Shown here: piece after piece, positions 1 through 10,574 of the stretch | Position numbering within the stretch: the stretch's first letter is position 1 | Layout: each line of letters begins with the position of its first letter | DNA from: Faecalibacterium sp. UBA1819 | Lineage (GTDB): Bacteria; Bacillota; Clostridia; Oscillospirales; Ruminococcaceae | Reading direction: 5' to 3' | Assembly: GCA_002315015.1 (NCBI GenBank) | Contig: DCEX01000004.1 | Span: forward strand, 1 to 48,043 | DNA length: 48,043 nucleotides | Translations under genes and position numbers: made by a program | The notes under the pieces: generated by a model | Database searches by the model: none | Told to the model about the DNA's origin: nothing | What the model saw: only the letters and a program-made list of their open reading frames with translations

Positions 1-88
1 ATATCCACCAGAGAACCAAAACAATAGCAATATCTTCCGCGTTTAAATCTTTGTATCAGTTTATCAATATCCACCAGAGAACCAAAAC
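1..88 (-). CRISPR. Type II-C CRISPR array, leader end (runs off the left edge)
   Basis: One complete 36-nt repeat (53-88), one full 30-nt spacer (23-52) and the last 22 nt of a second repeat (1-22, identical to the first) are visible. Read on the minus strand the repeat starts GTTTTGGTTCTCTGG, the usual start of type II repeats, and ends AAACTGATAC. Orientation is fixed by the tracrRNA at about 4896-5052, whose anti-repeat is plus-strand sequence, so crRNA must come from the minus strand. The 53-88 repeat is therefore leader-proximal and 23-52 is the newest spacer. The array follows cas2 by only about 50 bp. Its total length and the origin of the spacer cannot be seen. Confidence 0.95.
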
Positions 89-137: not shown

Positions 138-167
138 ATTATAATTCAATCAAATCGCGCGTGTCAA
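138..167 (-). promoter_or_regulatory. Sigma-A-type promoter of the CRISPR array
   Basis: On the minus strand there is TTGACA (162-167), an 18-nt spacer and TATAAT (138-143). Both hexamers match consensus. The -35 lies inside the last codons of cas2 and the -10 overlaps its TAA stop (139-141). Predicted start is near 131, giving a leader RNA of about 43 nt before the first repeat. Confidence 0.75.
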
Positions 168-447
168 GGAAATTTTCGTCCTTCACCTTTTCGCCCACCA
201 AAAGCTGCATTTGCATGTATTGTTTTTCCGTTACAATCATGGAGCGCACCGAGCCGTGCGGCGGCAAGTTCGCCTGCACGGTGCGCAGGTGCTTTTGTGC
301 GTCGTCGTGGTTGCGCGCCAGCCGCGAATAGACCGAATATTGCAGCATCATAAACCCGTCTTTCAGCAGTGCTTTGCGAAACTGGGCATAGTCGCGGCGC
401 AGTTTTTTGGTGGTAACAGGCAAATCGAAAAAAATCAGCACTCTCAT
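139..447 (-). CDS. cas2: CRISPR-associated endonuclease Cas2
   Basis: Cas2 (102 aa from this start) forms the Cas1-Cas2 spacer integration complex. The N-terminus MRVLIFFDLPVTTKK is the typical beta-1 strand of type II Cas2 with the conserved Asp, followed by a ferredoxin-like fold of normal length. The frame is open upstream to a TTG at 477 and ATGs at 471 and 462. I prefer the ATG at 447 because it starts the conserved domain, sits 7 nt after the cas1 stop and has GGATGGG at a usable distance, whereas the SD-like bases for the earlier codons lie too close. It is the last cas gene; no csn2 or cas4 follows, which supports subtype II-C. Its 3' end carries the array promoter. Confidence 0.93.
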   Translation of the reverse strand: MRVLIFFDLPVTTKKLRRDYAQFRKALLKDGFMMLQYSVYSRLARNHDDAQKHLRTVQANLPPHGSVRSMIVTEKQYMQMQLLVGEKVKDENFLDTRDLIEL

Positions 448-454
448 CCAACGG

Positions 455-1375
455 TCACCCATCCTGCTCATCCTCAAAGCACGGGTCGCTGCGCAGCAGC
501 TCCGGCAGGCGCAGCAGCCCGGCGTCCTGTCCCTGCACGGCGGCGGTAAAGCTTTTTACATACCAGTCGATGGCGTAGCGCACCCGCATTTTTTTATTCT
601 CGAACCGGATAACATGGTTCACCAGTGCAATCAGGCTGCTGCGGTTCGATTTCGTCAGCGTTTCAAATAATTCGTCACAATGACTATCCACCCAGTAATC
701 CACCAGCGGGCGCAGCGGCTCCATCAAATCGTCCGCCAAATTAAAGGCGTTGCCGCGCCCCATGTGATGGATGCCCAGCGCGCAGTTGTAGCCGTATGCC
801 GCCAGCGTTTTGCACACCGCCGAGCGCAAAATGGTATAGCCGTAGTTCAAAGCGGCGTTGGTAACGTCGTCATCGCCGCGCGTAAAGCCCGCGCCGAACA
901 AGGCGCGGAAGTGGCGCTTTGCCGCCTGTGCTTCGCGGTTGCCCTTGTCGCCGGGCAGTACCGCGGCGGCGAGGGCTTCCAGCTCCTGCACTTTTTCGGT
1001 TTTCACATGGCAAAAGCGCAGGGCGCGCGCCTGATTTGCAATTTTTGCCTGCACAATGCGCTGCCAAACCAAGTCTTTCCATTCCTGCGTCCATGCCATT
1101 TGTGCCGAAAGCACGGCAAGCGGCTGGTAGTGCGCATTCAGGGGAAGCAGTTGGGCGGTGGGGACATGGCTCTCGTCACAAAACAAAATGTGAACGCCCG
1201 CCTGTGCCAGCGTGGTAAGCACCGCCACGCTGAGCACGGCGCGGCGGTTGTCAATCACCACGGAATACAAATCGCCCACCGGCACACGCGCTTCCTGTTC
1301 CTCGGAACACACATACAGCCAGTTGTTTTGCAGGGTTATTTTTTCGCCGGCTTGTACAATAAGGGTGCGCCACAT
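455..1375 (-). CDS. cas1: CRISPR-associated endonuclease Cas1 (type II)
   Basis: Cas1 (306 aa) is the metal-dependent integrase of spacer acquisition. It has the type II length and start (MWRTLIVQAGEKI), an N-terminal beta domain (about 1-85) and the helical catalytic domain. The catalytic set is visible: Glu148 in GNREAQAAK, His204 in GIHHMGRGNAFNLADD and the acidic residues of LADDLMEP (about 215-219). The ATG overlaps the end of cas9 by 40 bp and its stop is 7 bp before the chosen cas2 start, so cas9, cas1 and cas2 look translationally coupled in one transcript. Nothing appears broken. Confidence 0.96.
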   Translation of the reverse strand: MWRTLIVQAGEKITLQNNWLYVCSEEQEARVPVGDLYSVVIDNRRAVLSVAVLTTLAQAGVHILFCDESHVPTAQLLPLNAHYQPLAVLSAQMAWTQEWKDLVWQRIVQAKIANQARALRFCHVKTEKVQELEALAAAVLPGDKGNREAQAAKRHFRALFGAGFTRGDDDVTNAALNYGYTILRSAVCKTLAAYGYNCALGIHHMGRGNAFNLADDLMEPLRPLVDYWVDSHCDELFETLTKSNRSSLIALVNHVIRFENKKMRVRYAIDWYVKSFTAAVQGQDAGLLRLPELLRSDPCFEDEQDG

Positions 1376-4300
1376 GCCACTTCACCTCCCAGCCTGCCCA
1401 GCAGCGACACGGCGTATTTGCGCACAGTGTCTTTTTTGCCGATGCTCATGGCTTTTTTTCCATCAAAAGGTGCATTGCCTGCGATATAGCACAGTGCATT
1501 TTGATTGATATTAAATACCGACTTATAAAACCCGCGGTACTTTTCCTCACCGTTGCTTTTTGTGACAACAATATATTCATAGGGGAATAAATACATGACA
1601 TGCGCGGCGTAATCGGCAGGGGGCGGCGTTTGCAGCACCAGCTTTTTGCCCTCGCGCTTTACGTCCGCGTTCATAATGCCGCGCATTTGCAGCTCGCCTT
1701 TTTCGTTGCGGTACAGCTCCACGCACCAGTAATTGCGTGTATCCAGCGCGGTTTTGCCGCTTTCGGGCGTTTCCTTATAATACGGGTTGCGCCACTCGTT
1801 GCCCGTCAGGGTCACTTTGCGCACCGTCCTGCCTTTCTGGGTGACAAATTCCGTTTTGCCCTGTGCCTTTAAAATCTCGCCCAGCGGGTCGTCCTCTTTT
1901 TTGCGCGGCAGGGCAAACGCGGCTTCCAGCGATTCGCGCAGGTCGGTGTCATCGGTGCAAAGCTTGTCCAGCTCCTTGGCTTTCAGGCTCAGCACGTCGC
2001 GGCGCTTCATTTCCACCGCGCCTTCCGGCGTTTGCTTTATCAGCAGGGCGTTTTGCGAAGTGACGGCGCCGCGGCAGCGTGTGGACGTTTTATAGCTCAC
2101 CAGCGGCGGCGACAACCGCGCCACAAAAGCCTCGTCGTGGTAAAAGTTGCGCAGCTGGTTGTAGTAGCGCTCCAACAGTTCGGCGCGTGTGGGAACGGGC
2201 GGCACTTCCTCGCCGTCCTTTTTGGCTTGCTTGGCGAAAAGCTCGGCTTCTTTCCGTGCGGCGTCCACGTCAAAAAAGCGCACGTCTACCTCCAGCCCCA
2301 GCGCCGGGTGCAGGGCGGTGCAGCCGTCTTTGCGGCACAAAATTTCCATCGAAACGCGGCGCGGCATGTGGTAATGGTCTTCCAGCGCGTTGATGCACTT
2401 TTCCATCGTTTGGTAATATTCCGATGTTTTCTGCTTGCCCGCGGCGTGGTAGATGCGGTTTAAACGCAGTTTGTTTTCCATCAGCATGGAGGTGGCAGGT
2501 GTGATATGTGCGATGACAACGGCATCCACTGCGTGGTGCAGCTGGGTTTCCGTGCGGGTGGCGTCCTTTTCGTCTTTGCCCCACGTCTGTTTGTTCAGCC
2601 ATTGCCGCCGCAGGGAGGAGGTAAGCTGGCCTTTAACACCAAACACGGGCGTGCTGCGCGCACCGGGGGCAAATTGCAGCGTTTCGCTTAAATAGCGCAC
2701 CAGATATTTTGTAATATAGCGCGTGTCGTTTAAATTGCGCGATTTCCACTCAGAAAGCAGCTCGGTGTTGTCCAAATTGGGCAAGGTTAAGTAGCGGTAG
2801 GTGCGCTCAGAAATCTGCTTGTGTTTCAGCATGTCATTAGCACGCACACGCAGGCGGTCGCACGCGGCGGCATCCAGATACATCAAAGGCACAGTTTGCC
2901 CCTTGCGGCGGTTTTCGTCGGTATACACCAGCGCTTTGTTGTGAATGGTATCGTCCAAAATCAGCGAAAACGGCACAATGTGATCCACCTCAAACTCCTG
3001 ACGGCGTGGGTTCAGCGCGGTGACTTTATCAATGGGCTTGTCGGAATACAGGCAGTGCCAGCCCTGCCGCTCACCCAACCGATAGCGCAGGCGCATTTCG
3101 CCCGTGACAGCAGTTGGCTCAATGCCCAGCAGCGCGGCAACGGTTTCGGTGATTTGCTGGTTGTTTTTTTCGTTTTCTTTCTGACGGTTGTCAATATTTT
3201 GGCGTTCTTCAAAGCTGTTGCCCACTTCGCTTGCCACCTCTACATTGATGGCGTAGGGCGCGCCATAGGCTTGGATGACGGCATTGATAATTTTTCGCGT
3301 TTCGTTTAAGCTGCGCATAACGACAGCATTTTTGGCAAATTCGGCATCAGGCGAAAAGGCGGGAAGCAAGCGGTGTGTACCGCCCTTTGCCATAATGGGG
3401 GCGTTGTCGAGTTTTGACTGGAAATGGCCATACAGCTCGCCGCCTTCAAATGCCGCAATCGCACCCTTCATATATTTTTCCGAAACGGCAGCCGTGCCGG
3501 AAAAATTTTGCCCGGCAAGCTTGCGGATGGCGGCTTCATTCAGTTCCGGCACAGCCCGCAGCGCCCGCAGGCGGCGGCGCGGGGTATGGTTTTCGCACAC
3601 AATTTTGCTGATGCGGTTTAACAACGTGTCGGGCGCGGTGTAGTTCTCGCCCACGGCAGAAAGCCAGTCAATGCCGCACTCGTCCAGCAGCTTTTTCATC
3701 GGCTTTAAAAACTTCAGGCATTTGCCAAGCGTTTCCTGCTTTCCGCTTTCTTTGGCTGTGGGCATATTGACCCCAGTATCGAATTTTTTTGCCAGCTTGG
3801 TGACATCATTTTTTTTCAGTTCACCTTGTTCCAATGCTTTTTGCAGCAAAGCGCGTGCCAGCTCGGGGGCAAGCGTTAGCTCACCCGTTTCCAAATTGGT
3901 GTAGCGATACTGAGAAAGTACGTTCACTAATGAGTAAATGTCGGCAAGGGGAGAAGCGCGGAAGGCGCACGGTTCATCCCGGTAATACCGGCAGTTGCCC
4001 AGCGTGTCCAAAAAGCCTTTGTATTTGCGCATGGGGTCGCCCGCTGTGCCGGGGCCATCCTCAAAGTCGCGCTGGTTCAGCAAAATTTCCTCTAAAATTT
4101 CGGCGTTCGTCATGGGGCTGGCAAGCGGCTCTTTCCCGGCGCGTTTTTTGACTGCCGGGTTGGGCGCGAGTAAAATGGGGTAAGTTTCGCCTTGCTTTTG
4201 CAAAAGCATTTGCACCTCTTTGCGCAGCAGGTCACGCCCTACCAAGCAGCGATCAGTTACATAAGGGTGGTTGAGGTAAGCGCGCTGTTCGCCACCGGTG

Positions 4301-4842
4301 GGGCAGGCAAAAGCGGCGTCACGCAAAAACATTTCGGCGGCGGTGCGGTAGCCGCCCTGCTCCATCAGTCGGTTGACGCGGCTGATGCCCGCCAGCTCTT
4401 GCTCGGCTTCCTCTTTTTCGGCTTTTGTCATATCCTCGGTATCGGTTTCAAAATAGTCCTGATAGCCGCGGTGATTGCTGATATGAATGAGGCATGCTGC
4501 CAGCTCGCACGGGGAAAGCGGTTCGTCCAAGCCTTTGACGCGCAGAGAAAGCGGGTCGGGATGAGGAGCTTCAAAGTAGCGGGAAAGCTCGTCCAGCGTT
4601 AAAAGCCCCATGCGCTGCAAATGCTGCTTCACACGCATTTTGCGGTGACTGCGCCGCCGAGTAACGCGGCGGGCGGCACGCTGTGCGCGGCGCTCCTGAT
4701 TTTTATTGCATTTATCTTTGGGATTTTCCGAGGAGTCGAACAGGCGCACGCCAAAATCTTCAATCCAGTGTTCCCCCTCATTTTGAACCACTGCCCAACC
4801 TACCGAGCCAATGCCAATATCTAAACCAAGCGTGTACTTCAT
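1336..4842 (-). CDS. cas9: CRISPR-associated endonuclease Cas9 (type II-C)
   Basis: RNA-guided DNA nuclease of 1168 aa, at the long end for subtype II-C. Visible in order: RuvC-I with Asp8 (GLDIGIGSVGWAVV), an Arg-rich bridge helix (about 50-75), the recognition lobe, RuvC-II with Glu535 (INVEVASE), HNH with Asp620-His621 (EVDHIVPFS) and Asn644, and RuvC-III with His770 and Asp773 (HHAVDAVVIAH). All nuclease residues are present, so it should cut both strands. The C-terminal PAM-interacting region (about 900-1168) gives no PAM prediction by eye. The ATG is preceded by AAAGGATG. The 5' leader overlaps the divergent tracrRNA promoter. cas1 and cas2 follow with overlaps or a few bases, and no csn2 or cas4 is seen. 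Confidence 0.97.
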   Translation of the reverse strand: MKYTLGLDIGIGSVGWAVVQNEGEHWIEDFGVRLFDSSENPKDKCNKNQERRAQRAARRVTRRRSHRKMRVKQHLQRMGLLTLDELSRYFEAPHPDPLSLRVKGLDEPLSPCELAACLIHISNHRGYQDYFETDTEDMTKAEKEEAEQELAGISRVNRLMEQGGYRTAAEMFLRDAAFACPTGGEQRAYLNHPYVTDRCLVGRDLLRKEVQMLLQKQGETYPILLAPNPAVKKRAGKEPLASPMTNAEILEEILLNQRDFEDGPGTAGDPMRKYKGFLDTLGNCRYYRDEPCAFRASPLADIYSLVNVLSQYRYTNLETGELTLAPELARALLQKALEQGELKKNDVTKLAKKFDTGVNMPTAKESGKQETLGKCLKFLKPMKKLLDECGIDWLSAVGENYTAPDTLLNRISKIVCENHTPRRRLRALRAVPELNEAAIRKLAGQNFSGTAAVSEKYMKGAIAAFEGGELYGHFQSKLDNAPIMAKGGTHRLLPAFSPDAEFAKNAVVMRSLNETRKIINAVIQAYGAPYAINVEVASEVGNSFEERQNIDNRQKENEKNNQQITETVAALLGIEPTAVTGEMRLRYRLGERQGWHCLYSDKPIDKVTALNPRRQEFEVDHIVPFSLILDDTIHNKALVYTDENRRKGQTVPLMYLDAAACDRLRVRANDMLKHKQISERTYRYLTLPNLDNTELLSEWKSRNLNDTRYITKYLVRYLSETLQFAPGARSTPVFGVKGQLTSSLRRQWLNKQTWGKDEKDATRTETQLHHAVDAVVIAHITPATSMLMENKLRLNRIYHAAGKQKTSEYYQTMEKCINALEDHYHMPRRVSMEILCRKDGCTALHPALGLEVDVRFFDVDAARKEAELFAKQAKKDGEEVPPVPTRAELLERYYNQLRNFYHDEAFVARLSPPLVSYKTSTRCRGAVTSQNALLIKQTPEGAVEMKRRDVLSLKAKELDKLCTDDTDLRESLEAAFALPRKKEDDPLGEILKAQGKTEFVTQKGRTVRKVTLTGNEWRNPYYKETPESGKTALDTRNYWCVELYRNEKGELQMRGIMNADVKREGKKLVLQTPPPADYAAHVMYLFPYEYIVVTKSNGEEKYRGFYKSVFNINQNALCYIAGNAPFDGKKAMSIGKKDTVRKYAVSLLGRLGGEVACGAPLLYKPAKK

Positions 4843-4860
4843 GTTTTTTCATCCTTTCTG

Positions 4861-4889
4861 TTGACCTTTCCAAAGAAATACGATATAAT
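4861..4889 (+). promoter_or_regulatory. tracrRNA promoter, divergent from cas9
   Basis: TTGACC (4861-4866), a 17-nt spacer and TATAAT (4884-4889) form a near-consensus promoter on the plus strand, only 18 bp upstream of the cas9 start codon. The predicted start near 4896 precedes both anti-repeats. On the opposite strand TATTAT (complement of 4885-4890) could be a cas9 -10 box, but no good -35 is seen for it. Confidence 0.8.
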
Positions 4890-4895
4890 ACCCCT

Positions 4896-5052
4896 AGAGC
4901 TCAGATTATGATGTGTCGGTTTATCTATATCCATCAGAGAAACTTATTTTGAAAACTGTGTCAGTTTATCAATATCCATCAGAGTTCTGAGATAAGGCCG
5001 TTGTGCCGAAGGGTATGGTGGTAACCCGGCTTTTGCCGAACCCACTTTTTTT
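4896..5052 (+). ncRNA. tracrRNA with two tandem anti-repeats
   Basis: tracrRNA pairs with the crRNA repeat and docks it in Cas9. The functional anti-repeat is 4958-4993. Bases 4958-4984 match the array repeat with two changes, both still pairing as G-U wobbles; then a UU/UU bulge and a short wobble-rich lower stem follow, the standard type II layout. Downstream are a nexus-like hairpin (GGC 4996-4998 with GCC 5105-5107 numbering offset corrected to 5005-5007) and a terminator hairpin (CGGC 5027-5030 with GCCG 5035-5038, outer arm GTGG/CCAC) ending in seven Ts (5046-5052). A second, poorer copy of the repeat lies upstream at 4913-4948 inside the same predicted transcript; it keeps the upper stem but not the lower stem or nexus. 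Confidence 0.85.
4913..4948 (+). repeat. Degenerate CRISPR repeat / first anti-repeat copy
   Basis: This 36-bp block aligns to the array repeat in the same orientation as the true anti-repeat, 45 bp upstream of it. It shares TATCCATCAGAGAAAC-like core sequence and about three quarters of positions. It diverges where the lower stem would form and has no nexus after it, so alone it should not make a working tracrRNA. Confidence 0.75.
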
Positions 5053-5063
5053 GTTGCTTTTTT

Positions 5064-5085
5064 GCCGCGCTTTGCGCGGCTTTTT
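5064..5085 (+). terminator. Second terminator after the tracrRNA
   Basis: GCCGCGC (5064-5070), loop TTT, GCGCGGC (5074-5080), then TTTTTCTTTT. It is a compact intrinsic terminator just after the tracrRNA's own terminator. It probably catches read-through from the strong tracrRNA promoter. Confidence 0.8.
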
Positions 5086-5193: not shown

Positions 5194-5235
5194 AACAAAA
5201 ACCGTGGATGTCGTTTGACATCCACGGTTTTTGTT
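5194..5235 (-). terminator. Bidirectional terminator after nahK
   Basis: An 18-bp stem (5195-5212 with 5217-5234, loop GTTT) is flanked by A-run and T-run, so it can stop transcription from either side. It closes the minus-strand sugar-processing genes. The 5086-5193 gap between it and the tracrRNA terminators is AT-rich and I see nothing else there. Confidence 0.88.
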
Positions 5236-6389: not shown

Positions 6390-7313
6390 TTATGCCTCCC
6401 ACAAGTTGTCCGGGTACAATCCGGCTTTTGTTTTCTCCGCGATGGCATTTACCACAACGGGCTTATCCTCTTTGTAAGTAACGCCATACCATTTGTCGCC
6501 GCTGCGCAGTACGCGGACGTCGGCTTTGCCTTCTTCAATCAGCTGGCTGACCACGCTGGGCAGGAAGTACTCGCCCTTCAGCGGATTTTTCACCAATGCT
6601 TCATCGAGGAATTTGGCAAAACGAGCCTGAGTCTCTTTCACAAAGCTCTCAGTGAAGCCCCACAAGTTCATGGAAACGATGCTGTCCGGGGAAACGTCGG
6701 TCCAGGTTGCACCGTCGTCCTCAGTGAAGTGGATGCCGCCCTCATAAGTCTCAATTTTGGTGCGCTCGGTAACGCTGGCCAAAGTGCCGTCGTTATTCTC
6801 TACGCACACGCCGCGGGCAACGCTGCCGTGCTCGGTAACGGTGTTCTTGAGCAGATAGCCCACCATGGCGTAGCTGTATTTCTCGCCGTCCTCATGCGTG
6901 GACAGGTAGTTGTAAATTTCGCGGAATGCCTCGGGGCCATAGTAGTCGTCGGCGTTGATAACGGCAAACGGTGCGTCAATCACATCGCGTGCAGCCAAGA
7001 TAGCGTGGCTGGTGCCCCAGGGTTTGGTGCGGCCTTCCGGCACGGTGTAGCCTGCGGGAAGGTCTTCCAGCTGCTGATAAGCATAGCGCACGTCCATGAT
7101 TTTGGAAAGACGGTCGCCGATGGCTTCTTTAAAAGCGTCCTCAATTTCGTGCTTGATGATGAACACGACAGTTTCAAAGCCGGCGCGGCGTGCGTCGAAA
7201 ATGGAATAGTCGATGATGATTTGGCCATGGTTGCCCACCGGGTCAATTTGTTTTAATCCACCGTAGCGGCTGCCCATACCGGCTGCCATAACAACAAGAA
7301 TCGGTTTTTTCAT
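6390..7313 (-). CDS. Sugar-1-phosphate nucleotidyltransferase
   Basis: A 307-aa NTP-transferase with an N-terminal Rossmann-like domain. The nucleotide-binding signature is VVMAAGMGSRYGGLKQ (about 7-22), and INADDYYG (about 118-125) holds the metal-binding Asp residues. It is not a classical GalU nor a GalT-type uridylyltransferase. Lying between galE and nahK, it is well placed to turn HexNAc-1-P (and perhaps Gal-1-P) into UDP-sugars, the step done by LnpC in bifidobacteria; this substrate is inferred from context. SD GGAGG precedes the ATG. A hairpin (7336-7367) lies between galE and this gene. Confidence 0.85.
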   Translation of the reverse strand: MKKPILVVMAAGMGSRYGGLKQIDPVGNHGQIIIDYSIFDARRAGFETVVFIIKHEIEDAFKEAIGDRLSKIMDVRYAYQQLEDLPAGYTVPEGRTKPWGTSHAILAARDVIDAPFAVINADDYYGPEAFREIYNYLSTHEDGEKYSYAMVGYLLKNTVTEHGSVARGVCVENNDGTLASVTERTKIETYEGGIHFTEDDGATWTDVSPDSIVSMNLWGFTESFVKETQARFAKFLDEALVKNPLKGEYFLPSVVSQLIEEGKADVRVLRSGDKWYGVTYKEDKPVVVNAIAEKTKAGLYPDNLWEA

Positions 7314-7335
7314 ACGATAACCTCCGCATATTATC

Positions 7336-7367
7336 AGCGGCAGTGCAAAACAAAGTACACTGCCGCT
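7336..7367 (-). repeat. Intercistronic hairpin between galE and the nucleotidyltransferase
   Basis: A 10-bp perfect stem (AGCGGCAGTG 7336-7345 with CACTGCCGCT 7358-7367) and a 12-nt loop. No T-run follows on the minus strand, so it is more likely an mRNA processing or stability element than a terminator. Confidence 0.55.
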
Positions 7368-7401
7368 CTATTACGATTGAAAATAGATAGCGAATAACGG
7401 C

Positions 7402-8421
7402 TTAGCCTTTGTAGCCGTTGGGGTTCATGCTCTGCCATTTGTAGCTGGATGCGCACATCTCGTCAATGCCGTACTCAGCTTCCCAGCCCAGCTCTTCACG
7501 CGCTTTTGTGGGGTCGGCATAGCACTCGGCAATATCGCCGGGGCGGCGCGGGTCGATGACATAGGGCAGCTCTTTGCCGCAGGCTTTGGAGTATGCCTTG
7601 ATGACATCCAAAACACTGTAACCGTGGCCGGTACCCAGGTTGCAGATGAACAGGCCGCAGTTGGTGGACAGCTTTTTCAGGGCTGCAACGTGGCCGCGAG
7701 CCAAATCAACAACATGGATATAGTCGCGCACACCGGTGCCGTCCGGGGTGGGGTAGTCGTTGCCGAACACATGTACCTCTTTCAGCTTGCCGACAGCCAC
7801 TTTTGCAATGTACGGCACGAGGTTGTTGGGAATGCCGTTGGGATCCTCGCCAATCAGGCCGCTCTCATGTGCGCCAATCGGGTTGAAGTAACGCAGCAGG
7901 GCAACGTTCATGGTGGGGTCTGCCTTGCAGATATCCTTGAGCATATTTTCGTTCATGACCTTGGTAGCGCCGTACGGGTTTGTGGTAGCGCCAACAGGGA
8001 AGTCCTCACGGATGGGCACGCTGGCGGGATCGCCGTACACCGTAGCGGAGGAGGAGAACACAAAGTTCTTCACGCCGTATTTTTTCATGGCGTTCAGCAC
8101 GTTCAATGCGCTGATGAGGTTGTTGCTGTAATATTCCAGCGGCTTCTGCACGCTTTCGCCCACGGCCTTGTAAGCGGCAAAGTGGATGACCGCGTCAATT
8201 TCAGGATGGTCAGCAAACAGCTTGTCAACCGCAGGCTGGTCGCAAAGGTCGATGTTGATAAAGGGAACAGGCTTTCCGGCGATTTGCTCCACACGGTGCA
8301 GCGCTTCTTCACAGGAGTTGTAAAGGTTATCCGCTACGAGAATCTCATATCCGGCTTTCATCAACTCAATGCAGGTGTGGCTGCCGATGTAGCCGGCGCC
8401 GCCGCTTACTAAAATAGACAT
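7402..8421 (-). CDS. galE: UDP-glucose/UDP-hexosamine 4-epimerase GalE
   Basis: It interconverts UDP-Glc and UDP-Gal, and in this pathway probably UDP-GlcNAc and UDP-GalNAc. It is a full-length short-chain dehydrogenase-type epimerase (339 aa). It has the NAD-binding GGAGYIGSHT (about 7-16), the FSSSATVYG strand with the catalytic Ser/Thr region, the YGATK form of YxxxK, and the late motifs RDYIHVVDLA and NLGTGHGYSVLD. SD AAAGGAG lies 12 nt before the ATG. First of three sugar-processing genes on the minus strand, it fits LnpD of the bifidobacterial galacto-N-biose pathway. Confidence 0.95.
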   Translation of the reverse strand: MSILVSGGAGYIGSHTCIELMKAGYEILVADNLYNSCEEALHRVEQIAGKPVPFINIDLCDQPAVDKLFADHPEIDAVIHFAAYKAVGESVQKPLEYYSNNLISALNVLNAMKKYGVKNFVFSSSATVYGDPASVPIREDFPVGATTNPYGATKVMNENMLKDICKADPTMNVALLRYFNPIGAHESGLIGEDPNGIPNNLVPYIAKVAVGKLKEVHVFGNDYPTPDGTGVRDYIHVVDLARGHVAALKKLSTNCGLFICNLGTGHGYSVLDVIKAYSKACGKELPYVIDPRRPGDIAECYADPTKAREELGWEAEYGIDEMCASSYKWQSMNPNGYKG

Positions 8422-8460
8422 AGTGCATCATGCTCCTTTGCGTTGTTTCGTGTATAACGT

Positions 8461-8483
8461 CACGAACGCGATTTGCGTTCGTG
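8461..8483 (-). repeat. Hairpin in the galE upstream region
   Basis: CACGAACGC (8461-8469) and GCGTTCGTG (8475-8483) form a perfect 9-bp stem with a 5-nt loop, between the AraC regulator stop (8589) and galE. There is no good T-run on either side. It may be an attenuator or mRNA-stability element. The rest of 8422-8588 is AT-rich, and I see no convincing promoter. Confidence 0.5.
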
Positions 8484-8588
8484 CTCTTTCATTGTTTATT
8501 TTAAGAGTTTCTGCGCGATTATAAAATAGATTTTTTCGTATAATATTTGCACAATTATCCCCTAGGTGTCTAATCGTCCGCAAGATGT

Positions 8589-9497
8589 TCAAAGATGTTC
8601 ACTTTCCGGCGCTTTACCAGACAAACCTTTTACCGACGATGCATACTCTGACGGTGTCATGCCGGTAGTTTTTTTGAAGTGGCGGGAAAAATAATGAATC
8701 GAGGAATAACCCAGCATAGAGGCAATTTCGGTAAAATTATAGCATCCTTCGCGGATTTTTTCTTTTGCCGCTTCGATTTTCAGCTGCCCGAAATACTCCA
8801 TCGCACCGCCGCCGGTGCGCTCGCGGAAAATTTTCTGCAAATAGCTGCGGCCCACCAGATTATCGCGGCAGATGTCGGCAAGCGTCAGCTTGCGGGAAAG
8901 GTTATCCTGCAAATAACGTGTCATGGAGGCGATAAAATCCTGCTGGTTATGCTCACGCATCATCGTTCCAGAGCGCTCGGTTTGCAGCGAGCCGGCACGG
9001 CGCACCAGACGCACAAGCAGCTGCTCCAGCGCACAGGCAATCAGCTGCTCTGCGCCGAAGGAAGCATTTTCGCGGCGCTCAAGCCGAAGCATTTGAGGGT
9101 CGCCCAAATTAGAAGAGAAGGCGGCAGATGCTTCGGTGACAATGGAAGCCAAAAGCGCGCGTCCGCTGTCGCCCAGCGATTCGATGCGCTCTTCAAAAAA
9201 GCGCATGTGTTCACTGCGGCACACAAAGCCTACCACAACCAGATTGGGTGCGGTGCCGCCGCAAGAGCAAACGCTGTGAAATTCGCCCGGCTTGTGAAAA
9301 ATAATCTGTCCTTTTTGCAGAATGTGCTGGCATTCTCCGGCACAAACGGATACCTCTCCTTTATCTACATATAAAAATTCCCAAAAGTTGTGGCTTTCCC
9401 CTTCAAAAGAATAAGTACTGGTATACTCAAAATAGTGGATGGAAATAATTTCATCCACCACGAACGGCTTTTGCAGCTGAATGGTTTCATAGCCCAA
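8589..9497 (-). CDS. AraC-family transcriptional regulator (proximal)
   Basis: A 302-aa regulator with an N-terminal cupin-like sensing domain (about 1-120; NFWEFLYVDKGEVSV, then HKPGEFHS). At the C-terminus is a double helix-turn-helix AraC domain (about 195-295) ending in the family signature, here IASMLGYSSIHYFSRHFKK followed by TGMTPSEYA. SD GAGGAGG precedes the ATG. It starts 53 bp after the second AraC gene on the same strand with no separate promoter, so the two are probably one transcript. Position suggests control of the galacto-N-biose genes on one or both sides; the ligand is not known from sequence. Confidence 0.9.
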   Translation of the reverse strand: MGYETIQLQKPFVVDEIISIHYFEYTSTYSFEGESHNFWEFLYVDKGEVSVCAGECQHILQKGQIIFHKPGEFHSVCSCGGTAPNLVVVGFVCRSEHMRFFEERIESLGDSGRALLASIVTEASAAFSSNLGDPQMLRLERRENASFGAEQLIACALEQLLVRLVRRAGSLQTERSGTMMREHNQQDFIASMTRYLQDNLSRKLTLADICRDNLVGRSYLQKIFRERTGGGAMEYFGQLKIEAAKEKIREGCYNFTEIASMLGYSSIHYFSRHFKKTTGMTPSEYASSVKGLSGKAPESEHL

Positions 9498-9550
9498 GAG
9501 TAAGAACCTCCTCTTTGTGTTGCATAGGCGGCGAAAAAGGCTGCCGTGTG

Positions 9551-10429
9551 TTATTTTCCGTCGTCTTGCACGTGTTCACGCGCGAGGCGGCATTGCTTAC
9601 GGTATTCCATGGGGCTTTGCGCGGTCAGCCGGCGAAAGCTTTGGGAAAAATAGCTTGGCGAAGAAAAGCCCAAAAGATGAGAAATTTGGGACAGGGAGTA
9701 GTCGGTGTTTTCCAAAAGGTACTTGCTTTCTCGAATGCGGCGTTCAATTAAGTAGTTAATGGGGGAGATGCCGTATTCTTTGTTAAACGCATGAACCAGA
9801 TAATACTTATTGACGTGCGCAATATCCGCCAGCAAATTTAAGGTAATGGCTTCAGCGAAATGCTCATCAATATAGCGCCGGGCAGCGGCGCATTCCTTAT
9901 TGGTACGCCGTGTGGGCTCCAGCTGCATGGTAAAATGGGTGTGACGCAAAATCAGTGTGAGCAGCACCTCTAAAAGATGCTGACACACATCTTCCCATCC
10001 GCGGGGATGATCTTCCGCTTCCTTTAAAAGCGTGCGCAGGAAAAAGATAATTTCGTTGCGGTCTTCGCGATAGTTTAAGATGGCATGGTCTTTATTTTGG
10101 GTTCCAAAGCTGAAATCCAGCCCGTCAATGCCTAAAACGATGTATTCCAGCGGATTGCTGGTAATACTGGACTCGGTGTGCTCGATATTCGGGTTCACAA
10201 TTACCATGTCGTCGCTTCCGACAGGGATAACTTGGTCTTTCATGCGAAACTCACCAATGCCGCGCATACAGTAAAACAGCTCGGTGCATGGGTGACTGTG
10301 CAGAGTGCTGTGCCAATCTGTGCTGAAGTGGGCTTCCGTGACATATAAAAGCCGTGCGCCGCTGAGATTGTTTCCGGTGCGGTTTCTTCCGGAGGGTTTA
10401 TCGCCGATGTCATATCTGCTGTTGCTCAT
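9551..10429 (-). CDS. AraC-family transcriptional regulator (distal)
   Basis: A 292-aa AraC regulator. The N-terminal cupin has the sensor strand HSHPCTELFYCMRGIGEFRM and INPNIEHT-type turn (VNPNIEHTE). The C-terminal AraC HTH pair (about 185-280) ends LLGFSSPSYFSQSFRRL. It is only distantly like its neighbour, so this is not a fresh duplication. Its own promoter (10575-10603) faces the 773-bp gap and diverges from the transporter operon. The start is supported by GAGGAGG before the ATG. One regulator may act on the transporter operon and the other on galE-nahK; this is inference. Confidence 0.9.
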   Translation of the reverse strand: MSNSRYDIGDKPSGRNRTGNNLSGARLLYVTEAHFSTDWHSTLHSHPCTELFYCMRGIGEFRMKDQVIPVGSDDMVIVNPNIEHTESSITSNPLEYIVLGIDGLDFSFGTQNKDHAILNYREDRNEIIFFLRTLLKEAEDHPRGWEDVCQHLLEVLLTLILRHTHFTMQLEPTRRTNKECAAARRYIDEHFAEAITLNLLADIAHVNKYYLVHAFNKEYGISPINYLIERRIRESKYLLENTDYSLSQISHLLGFSSPSYFSQSFRRLTAQSPMEYRKQCRLAREHVQDDGK

Positions 10430-10574
10430 GGTGAACCTCCTCGTCGCTTGTGCACGCTGTCATATATTTTTGCTTTGGCAAAAGTTTTTTTGAGCTTGTC
10501 GTGCAAAAAATCTGTGTTATTTTTATGTTCTGCTGAGGAATTAACAACATCTTTATATTTTGGATGTTGATTTC

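Follow-up and report, generated by a model that had tools for sequence, protein, structure and literature searches.

Tandem anti-repeats and a crRNA-mimicking leader in the tracrRNA of a clade of II-C-type Cas9 loci

The tracrRNA gene beside cas9 of Faecalibacterium sp. UBA1819 contains two anti-repeats in tandem on the same strand, 4913-4941 (copy 1) and 4958-4993 (copy 2), behind one strong predicted promoter and a leader that imitates the 5' half of the crRNA repeat. The same arrangement recurs in all 16 loci collected from the Cas9 clade to which the window (the whole stretch of 48,043 nucleotides analysed here) belongs. Tandem copies and mimic layout together form an architecture that, as read from the sequence, we hold to be highly probable. 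tracrRNAs are, to our knowledge, normally described with one anti-repeat. The architecture is a clade-wide tracrRNA variant, and the gating mechanism that it may serve is testable and unproven.

Locus layout and anti-repeats in the window

The window begins with the near end of a CRISPR array (1..88, crRNA strand minus), consisting of a half repeat at 1-22 and a whole repeat at about 52-88. The array repeat reads GTTTTGGTTCTCTGGTGGATATTGATAAACTGATAC in crRNA sense; more copies of it are found on contig C29 of the same genome and are taken as the rest of the array. The last repeat on that contig (L008, about 712-745) is degenerate and has G and T for A and C in anti-repeat sense, the same two letters that separate the anti-repeats from the main repeat. 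Next to the array, all on the minus strand, lie cas2 (139..477, TIGR01573), a type II cas1 (455..1375, TIGR03639) and cas9 (1336..4842, 1168 aa, TIGR01865 with 572 bits). The order cas9, cas1, cas2, then array is II-C-type by the gene order in the window, with neither csn2 nor cas4 among these genes. The closest named relative of this Cas9, 88% identical, is that of Candidatus Ruthenibacterium merdavium, which seems to be the same genome as G002, a member of the window's genus.

The tracrRNA gene adjoins cas9 in divergent orientation, on the plus strand. Its predicted promoter for a long tracrRNA (4861..4889, TTGACC-17-TATAAT) has 11/12 consensus letters, a weight-matrix score of 14.6 and counterparts in the relatives. 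The leader (4896..4912) extends from the predicted transcript start to copy 1 (4913..4941), which a linker (4942..4957, variable in relatives) separates from copy 2 (4958..4993). The tracrRNA 3' part (4994..5051), recognised by its sequence, its predicted folds and a conserved block, comprises a nexus-like region and 3' hairpins with a T run at the end. The sole entry of the terminator scan here is a hairpin at 5064-5080, and the hairpins of 4994-5051 are absent from that list. Further downstream (5194-5235) lies a perfect inverted repeat of 19 bp, which has a loop of 4 nt and A/T runs at either end; situated between the tracrRNA and the gene after it, it may terminate transcription in both directions.

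To score anti-repeats, they were locally aligned, with wobble pairs allowed, to the reverse complement of the array repeat. The scores are 56 for copy 2 and 50 for copy 1 (46 with the same repeat in the scoring that also covered locus L119), against a maximum of 35 in 300 dinucleotide shuffles of 4843-5060 and 33 at the next best place in the window (both strands, array excluded). Two repeat-like copies in the same orientation, as proposed in an earlier note on this DNA, are present where that note had placed them, complementary to the array repeat and near cas9 as is expected of a tracrRNA. Its division of the copies also stands: copy 1 comprises the upper stem only, without bulge, lower stem and nexus, and copy 2 is a full anti-repeat of upper stem, bulge and lower stem. 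For copy 1 the note had given 4913-4948, of which the start is right; the end is too far, ungapped homology stopping near 4941, and copy 1 reaches the AAAAC at 4952-4956 only with an 8-nt insertion. An Rfam search (E<=1) returned 16 matches, all under the gathering score. Pairing between copy 1 and copy 2 was considered and rejected, the copies having the same orientation and no such helix standing out in the predicted folds. Likewise rejected was an origin as degenerate array unit: the copies are spaced 40-50 nt apart vs 65-66 nt in the array of L009, and no decay was seen.

Promoters just before the leader score 13.1-17.5 in 15 of the 16 clade loci, and the best promoters with a start near copy 2 score 3.8-7.1 in the same 15; the promoter of L119 is weak (8.7 before the leader vs 7.7 near copy 2). 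By these scores, both copies are expected in the primary transcript. The shorter form with a start after 4948, which had been taken for the normal guide partner, finds no promoter support (6.4 at best near copy 2 in the window vs 14.6 at 4861-4889); if there is a short form, processing would be its source. Nor does a separate short-form promoter, as in the tracr-L system of Streptococcus pyogenes, stand out in the scan of the 16 loci.

Distribution and constraint in the Cas9 clade

Tandem anti-repeats lie beside cas9 in 16/16 clade loci (the window, L009, L017, L040-L044, L116, L117, L118, L119, L137, L138, L158 and L159), which represent 16 genomes, nine genera and five families. Copy 1 is always 5' of copy 2 on the same strand, with a start-to-start distance of 40-50 nt, and lacks the lower stem in every locus. 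A lack of copy 1 in close relatives would have spoken against the arrangement; it is present in every readable relative of the clade. Identity to the Cas9 of the window ranges from 34 to 88% among 11 aligned relatives. L009 and L011 (genome G002) look like one genome and were counted once.

These loci derive from genome searches with Cas9, which gave matches in 2/11 genomes of the genus (the window's own included), 41/396 of the family, 30/394 of the order and 35/391 of the class; a phylum search with the Cas9 of L119 matched 13/398 genomes, and follow-up searches were added. Since each search covers a part of its group, more members of the clade surely exist; many of the 120 listed out of 637 related Cas9 belong to it. 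Most search matches are more distant Cas9, and the distant hits (short or weak, mostly larger Cas9) stand outside the anti-repeat counts.

Canonical II-C tracrRNAs, represented by the outgroup, share with the clade the place near cas9 and the parts seen in copy 2, i.e. upper stem, bulge, lower stem and nexus-like region. In contrast to the two anti-repeats of the clade, 18 of the 19 outgroup loci with known repeat possess a single one (score at least 43) and none has a tandem second. This count leaves aside L047, L125 and L163 and masks 140 bases around each array; in the remaining locus, L127, no anti-repeat was found. Two weak hits were seen in addition, one next to the array in L045 (35) and a distant one in L128 (34). 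In the outgroup loci L045-L052 a promoter-like stretch, recognised by pattern in 4/8 and by eye in the rest, extends up to the single anti-repeat, and both leader and copy 1 are missing.

In a maximum-likelihood tree built from the Cas9 of 15 clade loci and 22 outgroup loci, a single trait change suffices, on a branch with 100/100 support. L138, the cas9 of which is cut by the contig end, was left out, and L137 was entered as its longer open piece. The tree program warned of L119 as a long branch. Five of the 22 outgroup rows, all entered as single-copy, are labelled on weaker ground: L127 (no anti-repeat found), L163 (no array found), L047 and L125 (scanned with a borrowed or guessed repeat only) and L128 (anti-repeat near the array, away from cas9).

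Two loci of the clade have unusual surroundings. In L137 (G1153, about 7150-10495) cas9 is in two open pieces with a stop, and promoter, leader and both anti-repeats are present. In L043 (10589-10725) the array follows directly after cas9, with no frame of at least 90 aa between them on that strand, so cas1 and cas2 are out of their usual place.

On viral contigs, a scan by Cas9 alignment yielded one relative of 27% identity (L081), a scan with the Cas9 of L119 yielded none, and the pattern of anti-repeat plus lower stem had 0 matches. The core pattern alone matched three viral contigs in one common stretch beside a gene start, which was taken as chance. Plasmid carriers were likewise rejected: tblastn gave 54 records, all below 60% identity, the best of which, from Ilyobacter, has one anti-repeat.

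The sequence comparisons show copy 1 to be constrained and matched to its own locus's repeat. Its identity is 81-100% (median 96%) in 11 locus pairs, which overlap in loci and are not independent, and at least 89% in ten of them; the same pairs give 86-100% for copy 2, 42-100% for the linker and 53-89% for the first 900 bases of cas9. Between the window and L009 copy 1 is identical in 27/27 letters. The repeat of L119 has 11 of the first 12 letters in common with that of the window and 11 of the next 24 (13/24 differ). The copies of L119 score 48 and 53 with their own repeat and 27 and 27 with the window's, and those of the window 46 and 56 with their own and 11 and 18 with that of L119. In 13 loci copy 1 differs from its own repeat by 18 changes that keep a G-U pair (A to G, C to T), 7 opposite transitions and 12 transversions, vs 9, 9 and 9 for copy 2; the copy 1 changes are not independent events because many are shared by descent. 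Predicted duplexes with the repeat (12 loci) reach -32.4 to -49.1 kcal/mol for copy 1 and -40.2 to -48.9 kcal/mol for copy 2. By simple energy sums, the crRNA prefers copy 2 in 8/12 loci and copy 1 in 4/12 (differences -6.2 to +13.0 kcal/mol); copy 1 is thus the preferred dock in some loci only.

Leader pairing and comparison with known guide RNAs

In 16/16 loci the leader, 14-18 nt long, shows complementarity to the 3' part of copy 2, where crRNA binds. Its target in copy 2 comprises the lower stem, the bulge side and the start of the upper stem, the same part that the 5' half of the crRNA repeat binds. In the window, 4900-4905 can pair with 4986-4991 and 4909-4913 with 4977-4981, for a predicted duplex of -14.5 kcal/mol (RNAduplex), an energy that 10/1000 dinucleotide shuffles of the leader reach. 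Over all 16 loci the duplex ranges from -9.1 to -16.6 kcal/mol, with 0 to 32 of 1000 such shuffles per locus attaining the real energy. The first 16 nt of the crRNA itself give -8.2 to -18.1 kcal/mol with the same target (13 loci with known repeat). As isolated duplexes, the leaders prefer copy 2 over the 3' end of copy 1 in 16/16 loci. Leader identity is 53-100% and diverges more than the pairing does; leaders swapped between lineages pair worse on average (-10.0 vs -13.1 kcal/mol). The mimic is shifted towards the bulge in the f79 loci L116, L117, L137 and L138, where its partners are the bulge side and no more than the start of the lower stem.

Ensemble predictions for the unbound long form pair letters of the leader with copy 2 at P>0.5 in 14/16 loci. 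The helix has P 0.00 in L044 and L017, where the leader letters pair on the copy 1 side instead (max P 0.73 and 0.92), and the lowest-energy fold of L009 is without it as well. With copy 1 blocked, as if bound by crRNA, the helix falls below P 0.5 in L041, L044, L017 and L159 (max P 0.27-0.45). Of the cells of the six-pair helix in the alignment, 82.3% are paired, vs 15.6-59.4% for slid versions. A single pair has both of its letters changed, from U-A to C-G, in the window and L009, and this counts as one event because it is confined to these related rows; at least one both-sided pair appears in 138/500 shuffles and as many pair types in 450/500. The evidence of the alignment for the leader helix is suggestive, and not proof.

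In 12/16 loci the -10 box is followed by CTTAG or CTCAG, at a distance of 9 nt (9 loci), 10 nt (window and L009) or 11 nt (L119), and the short stretch after this motif runs directly into copy 1. With the -10 box 9-11 nt before this motif of the mimic in these 12 loci, transcription from the predicted start would put about 3-4 nt ahead of the mimic. A guide was rejected for the long form since there is no room for one. For the long form a fold like that of the S. pyogenes tracr-L is expected, with these few nucleotides at the guide position.

The S. pyogenes tracr-L was reportedly described by Workman in 2021, and its 5' part imitates the crRNA repeat. It is a natural single guide of a II-A system that matches the cas promoter region over 11 nt (PMC8616872; Kim and Marraffini 2024, PMC11417352), and PMC8616872 states that it is not found in other subtypes. 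Both tracr-L and the predicted long form described here are 5'-extended tracrRNAs, the 5' part of which can replace the crRNA repeat and yield a single-guide-like RNA. The pairing of a 5' mimic with the anti-repeat was found in 16/16 loci as duplex and in 14/16 in the ensemble (P>0.5). A 5' guide of about 11 nt has no counterpart here. The clade differs furthermore in the conserved second anti-repeat in the loop, in the absence of a separate short-form promoter from our scan and in its II-C-type locus.

The scaRNAs of Francisella novicida (PMC8616872) and of the II-C system of Neisseria meningitidis (PMC13431127) are small RNAs of type II loci with a regulatory role, and thereby likewise extra RNA elements tied to such loci. 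A scaRNA is a separate RNA that pairs with the tracrRNA, whereas copy 1 is of anti-repeat sense and lies inside the tracrRNA. The tracrRNA of Cas12g also has 'two anti-repeat regions' (PMC10511118), which form two duplexes with one crRNA repeat; here, in contrast, the two copies have their complement in one and the same part of a repeat. No description of a tandem anti-repeat tracrRNA was found in titles and abstracts of the open-licence literature searched, which is not proof of novelty.

Candidate roles of the second anti-repeat

The explanation that we favour, tentatively, is a self-closed tracrRNA without guide that is opened by crRNA, copy 1 serving as the docking place of crRNA or as the site of an RNase III cut. 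With the transcript ends that we infer, the gene would produce one long tracrRNA made up of about 3-4 nt, the leader mimic, copy 1, linker, copy 2, nexus and terminator. In the cell, the mimic would fold back on the 3' half of copy 2 and give a single-guide-like RNA without a guide, exposing in its loop the distal half of copy 2 and copy 1, which is kept complementary to the array repeat. This closed long form would be a resting or placeholder tracrRNA. The repeat of a pre-crRNA would then dock on copy 1, on the exposed distal part of copy 2, or on both, and the mimic would be displaced; a putative RNase III cut of the duplex of copy 1 and repeat would sever the mimic from copy 2 and leave an open tracrRNA. 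Activation of the tracrRNA would be coupled to the supply of crRNA, each crRNA opening its own partner. The closed form may hinder crRNA little, since copy 2 offers it a free toehold. That the RNA acts as a crRNA-gated tracrRNA, in which Cas9 or the RNA's own anti-repeat stays blocked up to the pairing of a pre-crRNA with the second anti-repeat and the severing of the mimic by RNase III, seems to us somewhat doubtful.

Copy 1 pairs with the repeat about as strongly as copy 2, the copy 1-bound state being the more stable in 4/12 loci, and is without bulge and lower stem in all 16. These properties would also suit the sequestering of crRNA that the earlier note had suggested, as a sponge for crRNA or pre-crRNA that tunes down mature guides, the duplex being unusable by Cas9 and destroyed by RNase III. 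A sponge, however, has no reason for a conserved leader that mimics the crRNA, and as part of the tracrRNA itself it would have a fixed 1:1 ratio to the working copy; we consider this role unlikely.

The earlier note had also likened the RNA to the long tracrRNA of S. pyogenes that lowers cas expression. The likeness holds for the predicted fold, since a leader imitating the crRNA repeat can base-pair with copy 2, and finds no support for repression of cas by an 11-nt guide. An autoregulator of this kind, in which Cas9 with the self-closed form lowers cas expression via the promoter or the cas9 5' UTR and copy 1 serves as loop spacer or sensor, would accord with the leader pairing as in the tracr-L fold and with an RNA that is divergent from cas9 and close to its start. 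Yet tracr-L matches the cas promoter region over 11 nt (PMC8616872), and here the predicted start, with about 3-4 nt before the mimic, has no room for a guide, making the autoregulator improbable.

Equally improbable in our estimation is that copy 1 promotes maturation as a second long RNase III substrate for pre-crRNA, where the repeats are without a built-in promoter. II-C arrays exist that have a promoter in each repeat, with repeats ending in TATAAT. By eye, 11/19 outgroup repeats end in TATAAT and the 13 known clade repeats end in GATAC, AATAC, TATAC, TACAC or ACTTA, as would be expected under such a role. The loss of the repeat-borne promoter and the gain of the second anti-repeat may go together. 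The existence of RNase III-dependent systems with one anti-repeat counts against a role in maturation, which moreover leaves the leader unexplained.

Very improbably, copy 1 works as DNA, being part of the divergent cas9 promoter through a -35-like TTGATA on the minus strand. Such a TTGATA occurs in the copies of most loci, and the scan of the window reports TGGATA-17-CATAAT at 4933-4905 of the minus strand. The best minus-strand promoters of 14 scanned loci, however, score 7.4-12.5 at differing places, too weak and with no fixed position, and this candidate was rejected; a promoter element would also not need to match the repeat of its own locus, as copy 1 does, L119 included. A functionless relic of an old repeat or a chance duplication, which the earlier note had allowed for and with which the missing lower stem and nexus might agree, is rejected as scarcely credible: copy 1 is present in 16/16 loci, arose on a single branch (100/100), scores above all 300 shuffles, matches the local repeat and, with 81-100% identity beside diverged linkers, is about as conserved as copy 2.

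Programs that predict tracrRNAs by searching for a single best anti-repeat may settle on the wrong one of the two copies in this clade. The conserved second anti-repeat and the crRNA mimic in the tracrRNA of these Cas9 suggest another control of Cas9 at the level of the guide RNA, and offer a natural design for crRNA-triggered guide RNAs. If the self-closed, crRNA-opened tracrRNA is true, these bacteria would possess a built-in sensor that makes the loading of Cas9 conditional on the supply of guides, kept across the whole Cas9 clade.
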